Assembly: GCF_000758325.1 (NCBI RefSeq)
Contig: NZ_CP009459.1
Coordinates: 4,092,001-4,156,000, forward strand
DNA from: Cedecea neteri
GTDB lineage: Bacteria > Pseudomonadota > Gammaproteobacteria > Enterobacterales > Enterobacteriaceae
Direction: 5' to 3'
DNA length: 64,000 nucleotides
Positions 5,327 to 62,914 of the stretch are shown one piece after another. The position numbers were made by a program, and so were the translations under genes. The first letter of the stretch is position 1; every line of letters begins with the position of its first letter. The notes beneath the pieces were generated by a model, which saw nothing but the letters and a program-made list of their open reading frames with translations, searched no databases and had not been told where the DNA came from.

Positions 5327-6688
5327 ATGTTTAAACCGGAACTCCTCTCCCCGGCGGGAACGCTGAAAAACATGCGTTACGCTTTCGCTTACGGCGCAGA
5401 CGCCGTCTACGCTGGCCAGCCTCGCTACTCGCTGCGCGTGCGCAATAACGAATTCAACCACGAAAACCTCCAGCTCGGGATCAACGAAGCCCATGCGCTG
5501 GGTAAAAAATTCTACGTGGTAGTGAACATCGCCCCGCATAACGCCAAGCTGAAAACCTTTATTCGTGACCTTAAGCCGGTTATCGACATGGGTCCGGATG
5601 CGCTGATTATGTCCGATCCAGGACTTATCATGATGGTGCGCGAGGCGTTCCCGGAGATGGATATTCACCTCTCCGTGCAGGCTAACGCCGTTAACTGGGC
5701 GACAGTAAAGTTCTGGAAGCAAATGGGGCTGACGCGCGTGATTCTTTCCCGCGAGCTGTCGCTGGAAGAAATCGCCGAAATCCGCGAACAGGTTCCAGAA
5801 ATGGAGCTGGAGATCTTCGTCCACGGCGCGCTGTGCATGGCGTATTCAGGCCGCTGCCTGCTCTCCGGCTATATCAACAAGCGCGATCCTAACCAGGGGA
5901 CCTGCACTAACGCCTGCCGCTGGGAATATAAGGTTCAGGAAGGCAAAGAAGACGACATCGGCAACATCGTCCACGTGCATGAGCCGATTCCGGTGCAAAA
6001 CGTTGAGCCTACGCTAGGCGTCGGTGCCCCAACGGACAAAGTGTTTATGGTGGAAGAAGCCAAACGTCCAGGCGAATACATGACCGCTTTCGAAGACGAA
6101 CACGGCACCTACATCATGAACTCGAAAGATCTGCGCGCCATCGAGCACGTGGAGCGCCTGACAAAAATGGGTGTGCACTCGCTGAAAATCGAAGGCCGTA
6201 CTAAGTCCTACTACTACTGCGCACGTACCGCGCAGGTGTATCGTCGCGCCATTGACGACGCCGCAGCGGGCAAGCCGTTCGACCCTACGCTGCTGCAAAC
6301 GCTGGAAGGCCTGGCCCACCGAGGTTATACCGAAGGTTTCCTGCGTCGCCATACCCACGACAGCCATCAGAATTACGAGTACGGGCATTCCATTTCCGAG
6401 AGCCAGCAGTTTGTGGGCGAGTTTACCGGCGAACGCCGGGGTGATCTGGCGGCCGTGGCAGTTAAAAACAAATTCCTGCTGGGCGACAGCCTGGAAATGA
6501 TGACCCCGCAGGGCAATATCACCTTTACGCTGGAAACGCTGGAAAACGGCAAATCCCAGCCGATAGACGTGGCTCCGGGCGACGGTCATACCGTATGGAT
6601 GCCTGTACCTCAGGAGATAGCGCTGGATTATGCTCTACTGATGCGCAATCTCTCTGGTCAGACAACCCGTAAACCGCACGCAAACTAG
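5327..6688 (+). CDS. trhP: tRNA 5-hydroxyuridine modification protein TrhP (peptidase U32 family)
   Basis: 453 residues, identical in length to E. coli YegQ/TrhP. U32-family proteins of this branch take part in prephenate-dependent ho5U34 formation at the tRNA wobble base, not in proteolysis. The U32 signature with its conserved cysteines is seen in the region 5830-5940 (motifs GALCMAYSGRC and GTCTNACRW), which is thought to bind an iron-sulfur cluster. The start ATG at 5327 gives MFKPELLSPAG as in relatives. Followed by the CyaR sRNA as in E. coli, which supports orthology. Confidence 0.94.
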   Translation: MFKPELLSPAGTLKNMRYAFAYGADAVYAGQPRYSLRVRNNEFNHENLQLGINEAHALGKKFYVVVNIAPHNAKLKTFIRDLKPVIDMGPDALIMSDPGLIMMVREAFPEMDIHLSVQANAVNWATVKFWKQMGLTRVILSRELSLEEIAEIREQVPEMELEIFVHGALCMAYSGRCLLSGYINKRDPNQGTCTNACRWEYKVQEGKEDDIGNIVHVHEPIPVQNVEPTLGVGAPTDKVFMVEEAKRPGEYMTAFEDEHGTYIMNSKDLRAIEHVERLTKMGVHSLKIEGRTKSYYYCARTAQVYRRAIDDAAAGKPFDPTLLQTLEGLAHRGYTEGFLRRHTHDSHQNYEYGHSISESQQFVGEFTGERRGDLAAVAVKNKFLLGDSLEMMTPQGNITFTLETLENGKSQPIDVAPGDGHTVWMPVPQEIALDYALLMRNLSGQTTRKPHAN

Positions 6689-6719: not shown

Positions 6720-6771
6720 TTCTTAGAAACCGATCACATACGGTTACACAAGATAACGTTATTATTCGCAA
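6720..6771 (+). promoter_or_regulatory. Putative CRP-activated promoter of cyaR
   Basis: An imperfect CRP site, TTAGA-N6-TCACA at 6723-6738 (right half perfect, left half 3 of 5), is centred at 6730.5, exactly 41.5 bases before the inferred CyaR start at 6772. That is the class II spacing. A -10-like TATTAT at 6760-6765 ends 7 bases before the start. CRP-cAMP activation of CyaR is established in E. coli; the site here is my reading of the sequence. Confidence 0.65.
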
Positions 6772-6858
6772 GCTGAAAAACATAACCCATAAATGCTAGC
6801 TGTACCAGGAACCACCTCCTTGGCCTGCGCAATCTCCCTTGCGCAGGCTTTCTTTTTT
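6772..6858 (+). ncRNA. cyaR: Hfq-dependent small RNA CyaR
   Basis: The sequence between trhP and yegS matches E. coli CyaR closely: it begins GCTGAAAAACATAACCC, contains the conserved target-pairing stretch ACCACCTCCTT (complementary to Shine-Dalgarno regions) and ends in a GC-rich hairpin (GCCTGCGC ... GCGCAGGC) followed by a T-run that stops at about 6858. CyaR represses ompX, luxS, nadE and yqaE in E. coli. The terminator stem has compensatory changes relative to the E. coli sequence I remember, as expected for a real RNA. Located just after trhP, the same place as in E. coli. Confidence 0.93.
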
Positions 6859-12675: not shown

Positions 12676-13395
12676 GTCGCTGCGGCAGTGGCTGATGCTG
12701 TACTCGATGGGCCGGTTGTGGGGATCGAACGCCACCTGTTTGATGACCAAAACCGGCACTGGCGTTTCCAGTTTGATATGTGACTGGAATTCGCTGTCCG
12801 GCATTCGGGCGCTGACCCGGCTGCGCGTGCGCTGCGGAATAATGTTCTGGCTGCGGAAGTAGTCGTACAGCGAAACGCCAATCTCATCCGGGTCGGCAAT
12901 CAGCCCGGTCGGCACGTAAGACTCTTCGATAGACACCGCATCTTCATCCACATAGCGAATGCGCTTGAGCAGAAAAACCTCGCTTTCCGCCGGGATCGCG
13001 AGCTGTTCCGCCACGTCTGCCGGGCATTTCACAACGCGTTTGTTCACCCACAGCGTATTTGGCTTTTTACCCCGGAGCACAACCTGCTGAGAAAACCCTC
13101 TCGCCTCTTTCAGCGAATACTCAAACGTCGCATTAATTTGCGTCCCGTAGCCGCGCGAGCGCGTCACCACGCCTTCATCTTCCAGCGCCTGCATCGCCTT
13201 GCGCACGGTAATTCGCGACACGCCCGTGAGCTGGCTGAGATCGCGCTCCCCCGGCAGGATGTTGCCCTGCGGCAACAGGCCCGCGCGCACGGCGTTTTTC
13301 ACCGTTTCGACAAACTTGAGGTACAGAGGAGCGTTATCCGGGGCGGCAAAGCGCTGTTTGAGCTGTTCAACTAACTGGTGATGAGCCTGTTCCAT
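12649..13395 (-). CDS. yegW: GntR/HutC-family regulator YegW
   Basis: 248 residues from the ATG at 13395 (MEQAHHQLVEQL), the same length as E. coli YegW. N-terminal winged helix with GERDLSQLTGVSRITVRKAM, C-terminal UTRA effector domain. It sits convergent to yegTUV, which it presumably represses in response to the imported substrate; this is inference from position. A palindrome over its own promoter (13436-13446) suggests autoregulation. Confidence 0.93.
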   Translation of the reverse strand: MEQAHHQLVEQLKQRFAAPDNAPLYLKFVETVKNAVRAGLLPQGNILPGERDLSQLTGVSRITVRKAMQALEDEGVVTRSRGYGTQINATFEYSLKEARGFSQQVVLRGKKPNTLWVNKRVVKCPADVAEQLAIPAESEVFLLKRIRYVDEDAVSIEESYVPTGLIADPDEIGVSLYDYFRSQNIIPQRTRSRVSARMPDSEFQSHIKLETPVPVLVIKQVAFDPHNRPIEYSISHCRSDLYVFVCEE

Positions 13396-13435
13396 GGTAC
13401 GCAATTGTCCGGCAGGGAAGATGAAGCCAGTATAG

Positions 13436-13446
13436 TACCATTGGTA
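13436..13446. promoter_or_regulatory. Palindromic operator-like site upstream of yegW
   Basis: TACCA-T-TGGTA is a perfect 5-1-5 palindrome, next to TATACT/TACTAT which can serve as -10 for yegW on the minus strand. A related string CATTGGTAT occurs at about 9367-9375 before yegT. Candidate YegW binding site; inference only. Confidence 0.4.
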
Positions 13447-13481
13447 TTATGCTGGCTAAAAACTTCTCGTTTAACCGACAG

Positions 13482-14282
13482 TTACCACCATTCGTGAAAA
13501 TGATGCACCGGGCCAATGCCGTGCCCGACTTCCAGCGAATCCGCCTGCGCCAGCGCTTTAGACAACCAGATTTTTGCGGCAGCCACTGTTTGCGCCCAGT
13601 CATCATGGCGGGGGCGGAGCGCAGCCAGCGCGGCAGATAAAGTACAGCCGGTGCCGTGGGTGTTTTTTGTTTGCACACGCGGGGCGGTAAAACGCTGAAC
13701 ATCGTGGCGGGTAAACAGCCAGTCCGGGCTTTCTGCGTCGTCGAGGTGCCCGCCTTTCATCAGCACAGCTTCGCAGCCCATTGCCAGCAGCGCTTCACCC
13801 TGTTCGCGCATCTCTTTTTCACTGCGCGCATGGGGCGCATCCAGCAGCGCAGCCGCTTCCGGGAGATTGGGCGTGATCAGCGCGACATGCGGCAATAGCT
13901 TCCGGCGTAAGCTGTCCACCGCCGACGGGGCCAGCAGCGGATCGCCGCTTTTCGCCAGCATCACCGTGTCCAGTACCACGTTTGGAGCCTTATAGAACGC
14001 CAGCCGCTCTGCCACAGCTTCAACGATATCGGCCTCCGCCAGCATGCCGATTTTTGTGGTGTCGATGCGCACGTCGCTCAGGACAGAATCTAACTGCGCC
14101 GCCACAAACTCAGGCTCAATGCGGTAAACGGACTGCACGCCACGGGTATTTTGCGCCACCAGCGCGGTGATCACACTCGTGCCGTAAGCACCGAGTGCGG
14201 AGAAAGTTTTCAGATCGGCCTGGATCCCCGCCCCACCGCTTGGATCGGTTCCGGCGATGGTTAATGCGTTGATGCGTTTCAT
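13482..14282 (-). CDS. thiD: Hydroxymethylpyrimidine/phosphomethylpyrimidine kinase ThiD
   Basis: 266 residues. Ribokinase-fold enzyme that phosphorylates HMP to HMP-P and HMP-PP for thiamine synthesis. Visible: N-terminal [20 protein letters not shown] and the C-terminal anion-hole motif [16 protein letters not shown]. The start overlaps the thiM stop by 4 bases, so thiM-thiD is one transcript read leftward under the TPP riboswitch. Confidence 0.96.
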
Positions 14283-15067
14283 GCCAGCACCTCCGCGTTC
14301 AGCAGATAAAGGGCATCGAGGAAGGCTGGAGTAAAACTGCCCGGCCCGCAGCTGGCGGCGATGGCCTGCTCGCCGGCCAGCGCCATAAAGCGGCAGGCGC
14401 TGGCGACGTTATCCAGCCTGTCCCCTGGTAAAGCGCAGCACGCAGCCACCACGGCGGAAAGCGCGCAGCCGGTGCCGACCACACGCGTCATCAGTTCTCC
14501 ACCGCCGGTCACGGCAAGCGTTCGCTCGCCGTCGGTGACGTAATCCGTTTCTCCCGTCACGGCAACCACCGCGCCGGTTTCGCGCGCCAGCTTTTGCGCC
14601 GCCGGAATAGCCGAAAGCGCATCATCGGTACTGTCCACGCCACGCCCTCCGGCCTGCTCGCCCGCTAACGCCATAATTTCAGACGCGTTTCCACGAATGG
14701 CGGCGGGTTTCAGTTGAATAATGTCGCGAGCAAAACGCGTGCGGAAAGCCAAACCACCCACGGCGACCGGATCAAGCGCCCACGGCGTTCCGGCGCTATT
14801 GGCGGCGTGAATGGCCGCCAGCATTGCCGTCGCCTGCCCGGAAGTCAGGGTGCCAATATTGACCAGTAGCGCACTGGCAAACCCGCTAAACTGCGCCGCT
14901 TCTTCGGCTTCAGTCACCATCGCCGGGGCAGCCCCAAGCGCCAGCAGCACGTTCGCGGTAAAGGTTTGCACTACGTCATTGGTCATACAGTGAACCAGCG
15001 GCGAATGCTGGCGGAGGTGGTGTAAAACAGAGACGGCGGTCGCGCCGGGTAGCAGGTCAGGTTGCAT
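14279..15067 (-). CDS. thiM: Hydroxyethylthiazole kinase ThiM
   Basis: 262 residues, usual length. Salvage kinase that phosphorylates 4-methyl-5-hydroxyethylthiazole. Conserved stretches [33 protein letters not shown] and the catalytic [10 protein letters not shown] are all present. It is first in the thiM-thiD operon; its leader carries a TPP aptamer. A mobile element has been inserted right upstream of that aptamer, so the native promoter is now about 2.7 kb away (see the element). Confidence 0.96.
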
Positions 15068-15079
15068 AACGGTAAGGCT

Positions 15080-15113
15080 CCTGTCCGGCGTGAAAGAAGG
15101 GACGCCGGACAGG
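15080..15113. repeat. REP-like hairpin in the thiM leader
   Basis: CCTGTCCGGCGT and ACGCCGGACAGG form a 12-bp stem with a 10-base loop. It lies between the TPP aptamer and the thiM start. A second, inverted and near-identical copy is at 15264-15294 on the other side of the aptamer. Confidence 0.75.
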
Positions 15114-15115
15114 CA

Positions 15116-15200
15116 TCTGACTTCCCTACGCTGGCATTATCCAGATCAGGTGGTACGGGTATTTCTCAGCCTTCACAAAGAAGGGCACCCCGAGTCATTT
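15116..15200 (-). promoter_or_regulatory. TPP riboswitch (THI element), thiM copy
   Basis: Read on the minus strand it has all conserved TPP aptamer blocks: GACTCGGGGTGCCC, the thi box CTGAGAAATACCCG, ACCACCTGATC and GGATAATGCCAGCGTAGGG, and it closes with AAGTC, which pairs with GACT to form P1. It therefore looks complete and sits directly before thiM. TPP binding represses thiMD expression in enterobacteria, mainly at translation. The 77 bases 15124-15200 are repeated perfectly at 17817-17893. Confidence 0.95.
15124..15200. repeat. Attachment-site direct repeat, thiM side
   Basis: 77 bases from CCCTACGCTGG to CGAGTCATTT, identical to 17817-17893. To its left the chromosomal AAGTC completes aptamer stem P1; to its right lies element DNA. 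It is therefore a hybrid junction whose shared core is the riboswitch. Confidence 0.92.
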
Positions 15201-15263
15201 GGTAAAACAATCTTCTGATATATCGCCAGCTTAAGGTAAGTGGCTCGTTAGCACAAGCCCGCC

Positions 15264-15294
15264 TGTCCGGCGTCCCTTCTTCACGCCGGACGGA
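15264..15294. repeat. REP-like hairpin inside the element, inverted copy
   Basis: GCCTGTCCGGCGTCCC and GCCGGAC repeat, in opposite orientation, the hairpin found at 15080-15113. The two copies flank the thiM-side aptamer as an inverted pair. Confidence 0.65.
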
Positions 15295-15324
15295 GCAACG
15301 CATTATCTCACTTTTATACCAGTT

Positions 15325-15346
15325 TTATCACAGCGATTATCACAGC
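15325..15346. repeat. Tandem direct repeat, possible integrase arm or regulator site
   Basis: TTATCACAGC occurs twice, 12 bases apart centre to centre (15325-15334 and 15337-15346), about 125 bases inside the attachment repeat. Short direct repeats at such a distance are typical of integrase arm-type sites; function not shown. Confidence 0.45.
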
Positions 15347-15370
15347 TAACAGGTTAGATTGTTTTCAAAT

Positions 15371-15388
15371 ATCTAGCCCTATCTAGCC
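15371..15388. repeat. Second tandem direct repeat upstream of the 49-codon ORF
   Basis: ATCTAGCC is present twice, 10 bases apart (one helical turn), 25 bases before the Shine-Dalgarno of the small ORF. Could be an operator for that gene or another arm-type site. Confidence 0.4.
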
Positions 15389-15427
15389 GTAACTTGCTAC
15401 CCTCCGGAGCAATAAGGAGAAAAACGC

Positions 15428-15577
15428 ATGAACGCTTTAACATTTTATTTAAACCATCCTAAGGTTTGTGAGTGGATGTTTTTGATAGGTGTACTTACAA
15501 ATAGACAAACCATGGAGAAGAGGAAAATGTACAGCAGACGCATTAACATGCGAGACATTATTAGCCTCGCATTGTGA
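15428..15577 (+). CDS. Small ORF in the element (49 aa), unknown function
   Basis: ATG at 15428 with a strong Shine-Dalgarno (AAGGAG at 15414-15419, 8 bases away) and a stop TGA at 15575-15577, 3 bases from the stop of the convergent AbiJ-like gene. The product starts MNALTFYLNHPKVCEW and is basic in its second half (EKRKMYSRRINMR). I do not recognise it. Size, charge and position in a minimal integrative element would fit an excisionase, a regulator or an antitoxin-like partner, but no motif proves this. It is the only gene on the plus strand of the element. Confidence 0.5.
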   Translation: MNALTFYLNHPKVCEWMFLIGVLTNRQTMEKRKMYSRRINMRDIISLAL

Positions 15578-15580
15578 TAA

Positions 15581-16396
15581 TTAATCGCTCATCTTAGAAA
15601 TAAGATAATTACTGAACGCGCTACAGATAACCAACATATACCGAGCATCTTCTAAGGTTGGCTCCTCGCTATCATCCGTTAACGCATGACGTATTCCGCC
15701 TTGGTCACTTGTATATCCGTATAATTGTTGAAAGGCTCGTTTCATTGCAGGATGAATATGACCTTTATCCTCTATAGTTTTAAGACAATCTCCAAGAGTG
15801 CCTTTATCATTGCCGGAGATTTTTTTGCAGAGAGATTCAATAGCAGAGATAGATTCTTTAATTGAGTTTCTAAAATCAGGTTGTTCTCTGTTAGATAGCA
15901 AAGATAGCGCTCTATTAAAGTGTAATCTAGATGCATTAGTCCCAATATTCATTGCACCATCAATACTATCAATCTCTTCTGGTGATATAATCGGAGTTAT
16001 GAGTTCATTGATTATCGAGTACCCTAGACACATCCTTTTGAAAATTTTATTGTAAGGTTCACTCAAAAATGGAGAAACACTTACTGTATATTCAACAAAA
16101 TCTAATACCTCATGCCACTCTGCTAATCTAAAAAAGTCTTTCATGTATTCTTTTAAATCTTTATAGCTGCTTAATGGGTATTCAAAAATAGGCTCTTCGT
16201 CTGCGGGGAGATATAAAAAGCCACACCAGAACTCGGATATTATTTTGTGTGCAGCATGCTCAAAGTATTTCTTTATTAATAGCTCTGAATACAAGCAACT
16301 CCATAATGCTGTTCGAGTGTTTTCGTTTATTACTTCGACTTGAAGAGTGTCCTCAACTGCAACATGTCCATATCTTTGAGAGAACGGTCTAGCCAT
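15581..16396 (-). CDS. AbiJ-like abortive-infection protein (putative phage defence)
   Basis: 271 residues from ATG 16396. The N-terminus (PFSQRYGHVAVEDTLQVE, then NENTRTALWSCLY) looks like the AbiJ N-terminal domain type that precedes HEPN-like effectors; the C-terminal third is helical with conserved Asn/Ser-rich helix (RNSIKESISAIESLC), LGDCLK and QGGIRHALTDD (Arg236-His237), resembling the HEPN-type Abi C-terminal domain. I infer an RNase-like abortive-infection effector. It is co-directional with and 38 bases behind the integrase, and markedly AT-rich with rare codons compared with chromosomal neighbours, as expected of a recent arrival. A role in element stability instead of defence is possible. 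Confidence 0.7.
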   Translation of the reverse strand: MARPFSQRYGHVAVEDTLQVEVINENTRTALWSCLYSELLIKKYFEHAAHKIISEFWCGFLYLPADEEPIFEYPLSSYKDLKEYMKDFFRLAEWHEVLDFVEYTVSVSPFLSEPYNKIFKRMCLGYSIINELITPIISPEEIDSIDGAMNIGTNASRLHFNRALSLLSNREQPDFRNSIKESISAIESLCKKISGNDKGTLGDCLKTIEDKGHIHPAMKRAFQQLYGYTSDQGGIRHALTDDSEEPTLEDARYMLVICSAFSNYLISKMSD

Positions 16397-16434
16397 CGCT
16401 TATGTGCCTTATCGCTGTGTTAGTTATGAAGCGT

Positions 16435-17817
16435 TTAACGCCAGTCAAGTCCATCAATGATATGGCATACAACCGATAGAGGGAAGGTGTGGAGATATCG
16501 TCTTGTTATCCCCGTACCAGTTTTCTCATGACCTATCACTTGTTGAAGGTGAGTAATGTCATTCATCCAACCAGAGGCCGCAGTGACAACGCTATGTCTG
16601 AAGCTGTGGACAATACGCCGTTGATTTTGGATATCCCTGTATGGGATGTGTAAAGCGTCCCTAACATCGGACAACACCTTACCAATCTTAGCCATGTTAC
16701 TTCCTGCCACTTCTGGAAACAGCTTATCAAGCTTACCTGCAACAAACTCTAAGAAGCCCAAATCAATTAGATGCTGATGCAAAGGAACCTGTCTCACTGC
16801 GTTATCGGTCTTCCCTTCTTTGATTAGAAGATAGTGACGATTGCTATCATCATCAAAGCACACTTGGGATGTGGTGAGAGTGGCTAGCTCTCCCCTTCTG
16901 GCTCCAGTGTATGCAAGCAATAAGATAATCCATTTAAGCCAATCCTGTTTAGCCTCTTCGATTGCATACCTAACCAAAGATTTCATTTCGCTATTAGTGT
17001 AAGCCCCATATCTAGCAGACGATGGCGGGGCTGTTACGCCGTCAGTAGGAGCTACTGAAAGAACGCCTTTATCCTCAGTGAGATATGTTTTGAACAGGGA
17101 TTTATAGATTTTAAGATGCTTATGGATTGCCTCAGTTCCTAACAAATGCTCCTCAGGGATGTCATCACAGGATAGGAGTTGCTCGATTGTCATTGAGCGG
17201 TATGGCTGAACAACACGTTTAGGGAGGCCAGTAACAGCTTCCATAACATGTTTGATGTCTTGCCTTGTGATACTTCTTACGTCCCTCTCTGCGTCCAATA
17301 CAGTTAACATCACCTCCATGTAACGCTCATTAGCGCAATGAATTGCCGCCGTCCAAGATTTCCCCTTGTCCTTAACGTACCGCCCCCAAGCCTCCCCTAA
17401 AGTGAGTACGCTTCTATCCCAGTCGGTTACATCCACACTGTTTGTTGGCGCTGCAATGGTGGGCTTTATATACAAATCCGGTGAAACTCTTGCAGCCCTA
17501 TAGAGCATTCTGGTTTGGGTGAGTTCTTCCATCTGGCTAGATAGCTTTTCCGGGGGACATGCCCCCGCTTTCACATTAAGCATGGAAGGCATTAAAGCTA
17601 TCATCAATGTATTAGCTTCCCTGTGGCTATCCGTACCAAGGGAACGTCTAAACATTTTGCCGTCTGGCAAACAGAATTGAACGTAGTAAATCGAATGGCG
17701 GAGGAAGGTATAACGAATGCACTTAGTAATCAAAATCAACACAGCCTCTGTCTCAGTGATGAAAATCAAGTAGACAGAAGAATGATTAACCATATGAAAT
17801 ACATAGATATTTAACAC
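16435..17817 (-). CDS. Tyrosine recombinase (integrase) of the thiM-riboswitch element
   Basis: Up to 460 residues. All catalytic residues are seen: Arg307 in TGARRGEL, a beta-hairpin Lys in IKEGKTDNAVRQVPL, HSFR (His404, Arg407), His430 in VIGHE and Tyr441 in TRRYLH. An N-terminal segment (about 33-75) and a SAM-like core-binding domain (about 140-250) precede the catalytic domain. The longest start is GTG at 17817, whose first base is the last base of the attachment repeat; the internal GTG or TTG near codons 26-27, which follows a GAGG, may be the real start. Host-promoter read-through from the broken thiM leader could drive it in the integrated state. Confidence 0.93.
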   Translation of the reverse strand: MLNIYVFHMVNHSSVYLIFITETEAVLILITKCIRYTFLRHSIYYVQFCLPDGKMFRRSLGTDSHREANTLMIALMPSMLNVKAGACPPEKLSSQMEELTQTRMLYRAARVSPDLYIKPTIAAPTNSVDVTDWDRSVLTLGEAWGRYVKDKGKSWTAAIHCANERYMEVMLTVLDAERDVRSITRQDIKHVMEAVTGLPKRVVQPYRSMTIEQLLSCDDIPEEHLLGTEAIHKHLKIYKSLFKTYLTEDKGVLSVAPTDGVTAPPSSARYGAYTNSEMKSLVRYAIEEAKQDWLKWIILLLAYTGARRGELATLTTSQVCFDDDSNRHYLLIKEGKTDNAVRQVPLHQHLIDLGFLEFVAGKLDKLFPEVAGSNMAKIGKVLSDVRDALHIPYRDIQNQRRIVHSFRHSVVTAASGWMNDITHLQQVIGHEKTGTGITRRYLHTFPLSVVCHIIDGLDWR

Positions 17818-17893
17818 CCTACGCTGGCATTATCCAGATCAGGTGGTACGGGTATTTCTCAGCCTTCACAAAGAAGGGCACCCCGAGTCATTT
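17817..17893. repeat. Attachment-site direct repeat, promoter side (broken TPP aptamer)
   Basis: Identical to 15124-15200. Read on the minus strand, the aptamer core is intact but it runs into TGTTAAAT instead of AAGTC, so the 3' strand of stem P1 is lost. This copy is next to the ancestral upstream region of thiM and directly before the integrase gene; it may no longer switch. Confidence 0.9.
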
Positions 17894-18343
17894 ACAGCAA
17901 TATGTTGTGATTAATGCAGGTCATTAATCCGTGAAGAGAATGGTAATCCTGGCGGGAAGCCTTGTAAACGGCAAAAGCAGCGCTTTGTGGATTGTAGGTA
18001 GCGAGTTGTATTTGCGCCTGCTTAACTTAAGGGCGATTTGGTGAAGGAATTATCTCGCCGAATTTAACTGCCTCTGCCTATTTTCATTCCACAACCCCCT
18101 TCATAATCGGACTTTCAAACGTAAGTCTTTCGCCCCGATTGTAACAGCCGTGTAAGCGCCCAGGCACCTGTACAAGTGATGAATGTGAACGGCCTGTTTT
18201 CGCCATTTTAAACACTCTCAACTAAGAATTTTCTTATGATTTAGATCAAGGATTGCATTGTCACATTCCGGGATAGTTCACCGCCGTTATCAGTGCACTC
18301 AATAATGCACTGGAACGTTCAATTTATTTATGGTGAGAGAAAA
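17894..18343. other. Intergenic region between the element and the adhesin gene
   Basis: No convincing gene. On the minus strand, TTAATG-17-CATATT (about 17900-17929) may be the original thiM promoter. On the plus strand the right part holds the FNR-like site at 18236-18249 and the leader of the adhesin gene. Confidence 0.5.
18236..18249 (+). promoter_or_regulatory. FNR-box-like site upstream of the adhesin gene
   Basis: ATGAT-TTAG-ATCAA differs from the FNR consensus TTGAT-N4-ATCAA at one position. It is 94 bases before the adhesin start, compatible with anaerobic control; a CRP/FNR-family relative is also possible. Not tested. Confidence 0.4.
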
Positions 18344-19243
18344 ATGAAATTCGTTAACGTTAGTCAATCACTGGCCGTGGTGTTGAGTATTTTCGTGTTT
18401 TCGGCTTCTGCCCGGGCCGATATGGTGAGTGATTTCTATAACAGCATGGTGAATAAAACGATTACCTGGCAGAACGCCAATGCACGTTTTGAAAGTATGG
18501 ATGCAACGCAACAGCAGGCTGTGCGAGATTATGACCACGCCCATAATACAAACTTTACGAGTGATTTTGTGAGTGGGATTACCACCACGCCGCATCTGGA
18601 TGCCCCACATTCTATCGTCGCCAGCACACTTACGCCGTCAAAGACGACGGTTGTGGACCCGATAGTACCGCCCACAATGGACAAGGGTAGACACCTGGAC
18701 AGCACGGCAACAGATGCCGACCGCCAGGCAGCCAAAGATAAAGCGATGGTCGAATACGTTCAATCCCACGTTAAAAACGGTGTGGATGGTAAAAACGGAA
18801 CAGATGGTATCAACGGCAAAAATGGCCTGGTGACCACTGAAACGAAACTCGATACGGCAACGCAGGCGCGCGTTTCCACTAACGCTAACAATATTTCTTT
18901 AAATACTGAACACGCAGAAAATAATACCCGCCTGATTCAGGACAACAGCCAGTCGATAGGCAAATTAAATAACGCATTCTCTGCATTAAAAGATGAAGTT
19001 AACCATAATCAAAAAGAGGCCAACGCGGGTATTTCTGGCGCGATGGCAATGAGCAATATACCGCAGGTTATGAATAATCAAACCGTGGCTATAGGGGCAG
19101 GTATTGGCGGCTATGAAGGCGAAAATGCTTTAGCCGTGGGCGCCTCTACACGTATCGGAAATACTGTTGTTGTGAAAGCCACCGTCAGTGACGATACGGA
19201 AAACAATGTGGGTTACGGCGCGGGGTTATCTGTAGGCTGGTAA
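18344..19243 (+). CDS. Short trimeric autotransporter-like adhesin with YadA anchor
   Basis: 299 residues from ATG 18344 (MKFVNVSQSL). Signal peptide to about residue 25 (SASARA). Residues 26-145 form an unrecognised head; 146-161 is a collagen-like run of Gly-x-x (GVDGKNGTDGINGKNG); 165-225 is a coiled-coil-like stalk rich in Asn; 225-299 is a YadA-type anchor (VAIGAGIGGYEGENALAVG ... GAGLSVGW) ending in the aromatic Trp. Such proteins trimerise in the outer membrane and mediate adhesion. It is much shorter than YadA. An FNR-like box lies upstream. Next to lpxO, it makes a small surface-remodelling pair. Confidence 0.85.
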   Translation: MKFVNVSQSLAVVLSIFVFSASARADMVSDFYNSMVNKTITWQNANARFESMDATQQQAVRDYDHAHNTNFTSDFVSGITTTPHLDAPHSIVASTLTPSKTTVVDPIVPPTMDKGRHLDSTATDADRQAAKDKAMVEYVQSHVKNGVDGKNGTDGINGKNGLVTTETKLDTATQARVSTNANNISLNTEHAENNTRLIQDNSQSIGKLNNAFSALKDEVNHNQKEANAGISGAMAMSNIPQVMNNQTVAIGAGIGGYEGENALAVGASTRIGNTVVVKATVSDDTENNVGYGAGLSVGW

Positions 19244-62642: not shown

Positions 62643-62818
62643 GAGTGCTGACGCTATCTCCATGTCTCGGTTTTAGCACTGTACAACGTATCCCCAAAAG
62701 CGGGGGAAGTTACCTGGGGTTATACCTTCGCTCGATATAACCTGTCCTAATCTTGGGCGTCTCTCGACGTCGTCAGATCAGCAACCTATGTTTGTACAGG
62801 AGCCTCGCCTAACGAGAT
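62643..62818 (-). promoter_or_regulatory. M-box (ykoK) magnesium riboswitch upstream of mgtE
   Basis: On the minus strand the conserved M-box blocks are in order: CTCGTTAGGCGAGGCTCCTGTA, AACATAGGTTGCTG, GACGTCGAGAGACGCC, then TACAGTGCTAAA near the end. The aptamer ends about 65 bases before mgtE; the CCCCCGCTTTTGGGG hairpin lies inside it and other stems between it and the start may form the expression platform. Mg2+ binding would shut off mgtE. Known M-boxes control mgtE or mgtA-type genes. Confidence 0.85.
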
Positions 62819-62914
62819 ACTGCAAGTCTTCCGCGGCCTATAGTAGGGATTTAAACTTCAGGCGCAAGGCAAAGAGCCTGCGCTGTTTAGGGTTTATTTA
62901 TGCTTTTTTTCTGC

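Follow-up and report, generated by a model that had tools for sequence, protein, structure and literature searches.

Element and attachment site at thiM

Why does the chromosome of Cedecea neteri carry two identical copies of one riboswitch, one in front of thiM and the other next to an integrase gene? We analyzed a 64,000-nt stretch (the window) of this genome, a single contig of 4.66 Mb (labels beginning with G denote genomes, this one being G000, and those beginning with L denote loci). An earlier note, made from the letters of the window, had interpreted a thiamine pyrophosphate (TPP) riboswitch as the attachment site (att) of a mobile element, and this interpretation was supported. Positions 15124-17893 very probably form a small integrative element, the integrase of which would recombine the site of the element (attP) with that of the chromosome (attB), which would lie in the P4-P5 arm of the thiM TPP aptamer, with a replacement aptamer part carried by attP. 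The features of the locus are as follows.

13482-14282, - strand: thiD, next gene in the target operon
14279-15067, - strand: thiM, hydroxyethylthiazole kinase, behind the target riboswitch
15106-15202, - strand: complete TPP aptamer (Rfam RF00059, 74.6 bits) with both P1 strands
15124-15200, - strand: thiM-side att copy, presumably an element-derived 5′ aptamer part plus a host 3′ part running into thiM
15131-15144, - strand: dyad CTGG-ATAATG-CCAG (P5/L5) of the thiM-side copy, proposed core site and putative choice within the crossover interval
15201-17816, no strand: element interior, 41.6% G+C, absent from empty sites L111 and L112
15261-15281, no strand: perfect 21-nt inverted copy of positions 15094-15114 (thiM leader), located in the element left end
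15581-16396, - strand: cargo gene, AbiJ_NTD4 (Pfam), candidate defence family PDC-S32 (PADLOC)
16435-17814, - strand: tyrosine integrase, same strand as the aptamer and directly downstream of the far copy; the frame opens with GTG at 17817
17817-17893, - strand: far att copy adjoining the integrase gene, host 5′ aptamer part passing into element DNA, without the 3′ P1 strand, 65.1 bits
17824-17837, - strand: dyad CTGG-ATAATG-CCAG of the far copy
17894-18602, no strand: host DNA flanking the single aptamer in empty sites L111 and L112

Comparison of the window with itself showed that the two att copies were identical across 77 bp, and both scored above the RF00059 gathering score of 54.3 bits, confirming the pair of perfect aptamer copies that the earlier note had claimed. 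The AT-rich unit of 2.6 kb that it had placed between them measured 2616 bp, and its G+C content was far below that of the window (55.9%) and of thiMD (62.0%). The integrase reading frame matched Pfam Phage_integrase (4.7e-9), and residues R306, K335, H403, R406, H429, and Y440 were invariant in an alignment of eight rows. We take these six residues to be the catalytic set, in agreement with the claim of a catalytically equipped tyrosine integrase abutting one copy. The cargo gene had been missing from that account.

The tyrosine integrase, the direct repeats at both ends, and the empty site in relatives place the unit among integrative elements. By its genes it does not qualify as a phage satellite, its two main proteins being the integrase and the AbiJ-like protein, in contrast to the primase, AlpA, capsid, and packaging genes expected of that class. 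It works like an element at a transfer RNA (tRNA) site and is not one, because its target is RF00059 and not a tRNA or transfer-messenger RNA (tmRNA).

Empty sites and recurrence

A thiM match was found in all seven other genomes of the genus that were examined. Two of these (L111 and L112) had empty sites, in which window positions 12779-15200 joined 17817-18602 at one 77-bp aptamer. By eye, the sequence preceding the aptamer in L109 and L110 resembled the left end of another element. L113-L115 had in common with the right flank of the window only the aptamer, approximately 20 bp, and DNA further right.

Integrases related to that of the window (family 1) were sought in 294 genomes of the host family. 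All 11 integrases listed with at least 49% identity over at least 300 residues had a TPP aptamer beside their 5′ end (genomes G000, G199, G239, G188, G146, G140, G064, G065, G099, G186, and G075). A scan of 84,980 species' contigs gave 25 relatives, and a scan of viral contigs gave one; these 26 overlap partly with the 294-genome set, and two come from one genome. A 26-bp core (≤4 mismatches) was found just upstream of the integrase gene in 24 of the 26, always on the integrase strand when both strands were searched. The two exceptions, L074 and L078, were 5′-truncated integrases still within a thiM island. The earlier note had named two outcomes that would count against it, namely, two aptamers in relatives lacking the integrase and integrase relatives at unrelated sites. 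Neither was found: L111 and L112 had one aptamer and no insert, and the relatives lay at the core or, as truncated remnants, in the thiM island. A chance repeat is ruled out by the empty sites and by the recurrence of the layout.

Hosts included Trabulsiella, Enterobacter, Klebsiella, Citrobacter, Pantoea, Erwinia, Cedecea, and Rahnella; Erwinia typographi had two elements in tandem with three aptamers. The distance from core to integrase gene was 5-108 bp in 26 of the 33 listed loci, and ThiM started 52-64 bp past the gene-side core in 27. The other six were integrase-side contigs or middle copies (L038, L039, L041, and L088), the viral contig L079, and L045, in which thiD follows. The family-1 element is widespread and its site is repeatedly used.

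In Escherichia coli, the aptamer matched in 5373 of 5426 genomes at 5664 places, and only part of the 291 places beyond one per genome was assigned to an element. A 275-bp query (112 bp of the integrase gene, spacer, and aptamer) was covered to at least 80% at a place in 190 of the 5426 genomes, and some similarity to the integrase gene was present in 218. All seven E. coli integrase loci that were read (L001, L107, and L123-L127) had the core before the integrase gene, which was broken in L126 and L127. By tblastn, the window integrase matched two phage records and 10 plasmid records with no more than 42% identity; the best of them was L003, a locus at an rnpB site (described below). The viral scan with the single protein gave no match. 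The viral contig L079 was considered as a possible attP and rejected: its left side has the end sequence of family 2 in common (see below), and it was read by eye as a junction between a family-2 end and a family-1 integrase end.

The suggestion of the earlier note that the target would be conserved across bacteria was not borne out. All readable family-1 far sides were at the thiM/thiD aptamer in Enterobacterales, and the three other TPP aptamers of this genome differed from the P5/L5 16-mer of the target by two, three, and more than three bases.

Crossover point and rebuilding of the aptamer

The two aptamer copies were compared in the 24 loci that had both. Loci with one copy in the stretch (L038, L039, L041/L042, L074, L078, L079, and L091), L088, in which both copies precede the integrase gene, L122, and the E. 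coli loci L123-L127 are outside this set. The gene-side copy contained GACTC and AGTC, the two P1 strands, in 24 of 24 pairs, whereas AGTC (the 3′ strand) was present in none of the integrase-side copies. The window, with the complete aptamer that had been noted before thiM, agrees with this pattern. Rfam scores were higher for the gene-side copy in every pair (71.2-78.4 vs. 35.3-65.1 bits), and all gene-side copies exceeded the gathering score. Pairing was kept in 95.3% of cells of the gene-side alignment, including 97.5% for P1 and 100% for P2.

Differences between copies extended from the 5′ side to core position 0 where the two cores were identical, to 7 in L087, and to 14 in L086; from the 3′ side they began at position 27 or 29. 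With L063 and L045 set aside, the exchange is confined to core positions 8-26, CTGGATAATGCCAGCGTAG, or part of it. In the Rfam alignment, P5 is formed by CTGG and CCAG with AUAAUG as its loop, and P4 by CCUG/UAGG. A dyad with a 6-bp center suits a tyrosine recombinase. By these differences the crossover lies in the P4-P5 arm, probably at the dyad CTGG-ATAATG-CCAG, the coding sequence of hairpin P5. The same exchange can be followed in E. coli A11 by comparison with K-12: the integrase-side copy had K-12-like upstream DNA and GTATC, and the thiM-side copy had foreign upstream DNA, a different P3, and GTACC, followed by the E. coli leader.

In the proposed mechanism, the integrase joins attP to attB within the P4-P5 arm, the 6-bp center of the dyad being the most likely place of exchange. 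Because attP would bring its own 5′ aptamer part (5′ strand of P1, P2, and P3), integration would restore a working aptamer before thiM and leave a second, 3′-truncated aptamer before the integrase gene. The native thiM upstream sequence would come to lie upstream of the integrase gene and thiM would take whatever promoter the element left end supplies, so that integration would swap the two upstream regions. The basis of this reading is comparative: the empty sites, the direct repeats, the recurrence of one integrase clade at this site, and a P1-complete copy on the gene side only.

Several observations weigh against it. The core position is deduced from differences between copies, and differences within the core occurred in L063 (positions 12-14) and L045 (8, 10, and 23), which may be later decay. 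In L041, the integrase was 449 bp from the core (the match starts at residue 134). L035 has no integrase distance in the 33-locus list, although a separate reading puts the aptamer 73 bp from the integrase match. In L045 (1971-3058, genome G222), the aptamer precedes thiD, thiM was not detected, and the integrase is a remnant. P3 was paired in only 81.7% of cells of the gene-side alignment, and covariation in these aptamers was not above that of shuffles (104 of 500 were as high), the pairs being conserved and not covarying. A promoter scan of the window left end was near chance (one site vs. 0.5 expected), and this left end had no similarity to native thiM upstream DNA (scores of 12-17, in a run without shuffles).

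Left ends of 18 elements were compared with the native upstream DNA of L111; L088, having no gene-side copy, was absent from the comparison. L107, L080, and L085 scored 112-122 (shuffled maxima, 21-23), seven more beat all 200 shuffles at 29-47, and L034 beat them by one point. L035, L081, L001, L043, L040, L084, and L090 did not beat the shuffles. Restoration of the promoter by the element left end was not demonstrated. Inverted leader copies like that at 15261-15281 were also seen elsewhere: the left end of L034 had a perfect 25-nt inverted copy of its own host's thiM leader (17990-18014/18162-18186), and those of L035 and L037 had an inverted near-copy of the aptamer core.

A second integrase family at the same aptamer

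E. coli 2015C-4136CT1 (L128/L129) had a different integrase (family 2), with an Arm-DNA-bind_3 domain, between rcnR and a satellite-like region. It had no meaningful similarity to the family-1 integrase (BLASTP E = 0.52). Family 2 was present in 75 of the 5426 E. coli genomes. A query of integrase gene plus flank, 79% of which is the integrase gene, was covered to at least 80% at a place in 75 genomes, so that adjacency is tested only weakly. The rcnR-side aptamer was cut after GAAATACCCGTAT in all five strains read (2015C-4136CT1, HS4, CUVET16-819, A34, and VG35A2; loci L128-L135). The thiM sides read (2015C-4136CT1 and CUVET16-819) had only the 3′ part of the aptamer, scoring 34.0 and 33.3 bits, below the gathering score; the stretch of A34 ended short of thiM and ran into other chromosomal genes. 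Family-2 elements had annotations such as primase and Icd-like, which by eye resemble those of phage-inducible chromosomal islands (PICIs). Judged from these sequences, family 2 is an unrelated integrase that uses another point of the same aptamer and apparently leaves a broken copy at the two thiM sides that were read.

Alternative explanations

The integrase might target an intergenic site with which the riboswitch only happens to overlap, and rebuilding of the aptamer would then not be under selection. Rebuilding is not automatic, because family 2 inserts in the same aptamer and breaks it in the two cases read, and the covariation result gives no support for selection. However, in all 24 pairs the left end of family 1 brought the 5′ half of the aptamer, which reaches approximately 55 bp past the core, and the pairs of P1 and P2 were kept at the frequencies given above despite widely differing flanks beyond the aptamer. 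We consider this explanation unlikely.

It is far less probable that the repeat is a target-site duplication, or a scar of homologous recombination, left by a transposon or plasmid insertion with the integrase as passenger. Insertion sequences do occur in or beside the locus in some relatives, but the copies have the same end points in the aptamer even where, as is often the case, their 5′ parts are different, the distance from integrase gene to core is short in many hosts, and neither of the two main proteins of the window unit matched a Pfam transposase family. Least credible is a regulatory pair of tandem TPP riboswitches enclosing an integrase by chance: both window copies do score as TPP aptamers, but empty sites with one aptamer exist, the copies are approximately 2.2 to 17.1 kb apart, and the integrase-side copy lacked the 3′ P1 strand throughout.

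Related integrases at other sites

RNase P RNA (rnpB) was near the integrase gene in 12 loci of more distant relatives (L003, L015-L018, L096, L100-L104, and L106). A second copy of its 3′ end was found at the far side in four of five loci examined and was not found in the fifth, L048. Four further loci (L050-L053) had a perfect repeat of 15-18 bp around a dyad, which was CGCC-TTCACA-GGCG in three. In L050, the repeat was just before an open reading frame (ORF) named RluB by NCBIfam, and the other three genes were judged by eye. An attachment site in the trp leader was considered for integrases with 33-36% identity that had Rfam Trp_leader nearby and was rejected, the direct repeats being elsewhere, before rluB in the one gene tested.

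In a tree of these integrases, each site label required one change (TPP, 26 rows; rnpB, 11; rluB, four), and the TPP-site integrases formed one side of a branch with support of 100/100. L074 was dropped for lack of sequence, four rows were less than half filled, and the rnpB rows L100, L104, and L106 had very long branches that make their placement uncertain.

These results can be read jointly, in a way that we hold to be about evenly balanced between right and wrong. Integrases would in general also target structured RNAs beyond tRNA and tmRNA, a class concealed among the sites called "intergenic". The dyads between which one integrase lineage would have moved would encode RNA hairpins: one precedes rluB, one belongs to the 3′ end of RNase P RNA, and one is P5 of the thiM aptamer. 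The riboswitch of thiM would serve as a common hotspot, rebuilt by family 1 with vitamin control intact and broken by an unrelated satellite family, with TPP control reversible by excision ("regulated riboswitch integrity"). Both families would put the thiM upstream region before their integrase gene.

Two other structured RNAs of the window, the small RNA CyaR and an M-box magnesium riboswitch (6770-6854 and 62651-62823, respectively, by Rfam), were taken as ordinary.

Cargo and larger elements

Twenty elements contained 154 ORFs of at least 120 codons, integrases included. Ten large or integrase-near proteins, hand-picked and not random, were searched with PADLOC and gave seven clear matches (Old-like, AbiU, PD-Lambda-2_B, PDC-S25, REase_II/HATPase twice, and type IV restriction), two weak matches, and one without a match. 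One weak match (L083) was a flagellin by Pfam. L080 matched Phage_cap_E and a tape-measure protein. Larger family-1 elements are of a satellite type: a gene for a major capsid protein is present in L080, L125, and L127, and two of these, L080 and L127, also have one for a tape-measure protein.

The thiM island of E. coli B-LamR (L122, 11983-16511) had no annotated integrase and had IS1 at its lost edge. Four of its protein accessions recurred in the element of E. coli MRE162 (L124), which has an integrase and a far aptamer. The helix-turn-helix and DUF6998 genes of the B-LamR island presumably correspond to ECD_02033/02034 of PMC5487053.

Comparison with known systems

By the reading given here, the sites known to receive mobile DNA would come to include an element of mRNA that binds a ligand. 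This reading explains why one locus varies among E. coli and its relatives, with defence-like genes in several of the elements there, and it probably explains the McrX island of E. coli B as well. The locus also offers a natural experiment on a single riboswitch, which one integrase family rebuilds and the other breaks, and it suggests that "intergenic" island sites be re-examined for structured RNA. Genomic islands reportedly target tRNA and tmRNA genes, a subject associated with Williams (2002). We recognized no description of a riboswitch as attachment site among the top-ranked open-access papers listed; subscription papers and supplements were outside this search, so that a prior description may exist.

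In the TIGER/Islander study (PMC12424338), the sites of islands were classed as tRNA/tmRNA (33.8%), protein-coding (43.4%), and intergenic (22.8%), and its main text does not contain the word riboswitch. Judged by the account in that text, the C. neteri element resembles tRNA/tmRNA islands in having a tyrosine integrase beside one att copy, an identity block in RNA-encoding sequence, and a replacement in attP. Unlike them, it targets a cis-acting riboswitch within the leader of an mRNA, and the 5′ part is replaced, so that the upstream region of the target would be displaced as well.

The thiM island of E. coli B described in the main text of PMC5487053 is at the same locus and carries ecoBLmcrX, the classical r6/rglA(B) restriction; neither riboswitch nor integrase is mentioned in that text. 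Enterobacterial PICI satellites and att sites at which genes are replaced or broken, as presented in the main text of PMC10111431, likewise carry the replacement sequence in attP, and disruption without replacement is read there as regulated gene integrity; riboswitch, thiM, rcnR, and rnpB are all absent from that text. Family-2 elements resemble these satellites in their PICI-like annotations, by eye, whereas the window unit has only the integrase and one cargo gene. In ICEKp1 at tRNA-asn, according to PMC13023037, recombination alters the upstream region driving the integrase gene, as would be the case here; in ICEKp1 the driver is the tRNA promoter, whereas here the putative driver is the thiM upstream region with a truncated aptamer. 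Taken together, strong comparative evidence points to a new kind of attachment site in a familiar kind of element, with a mechanism that we infer from the same sequences.

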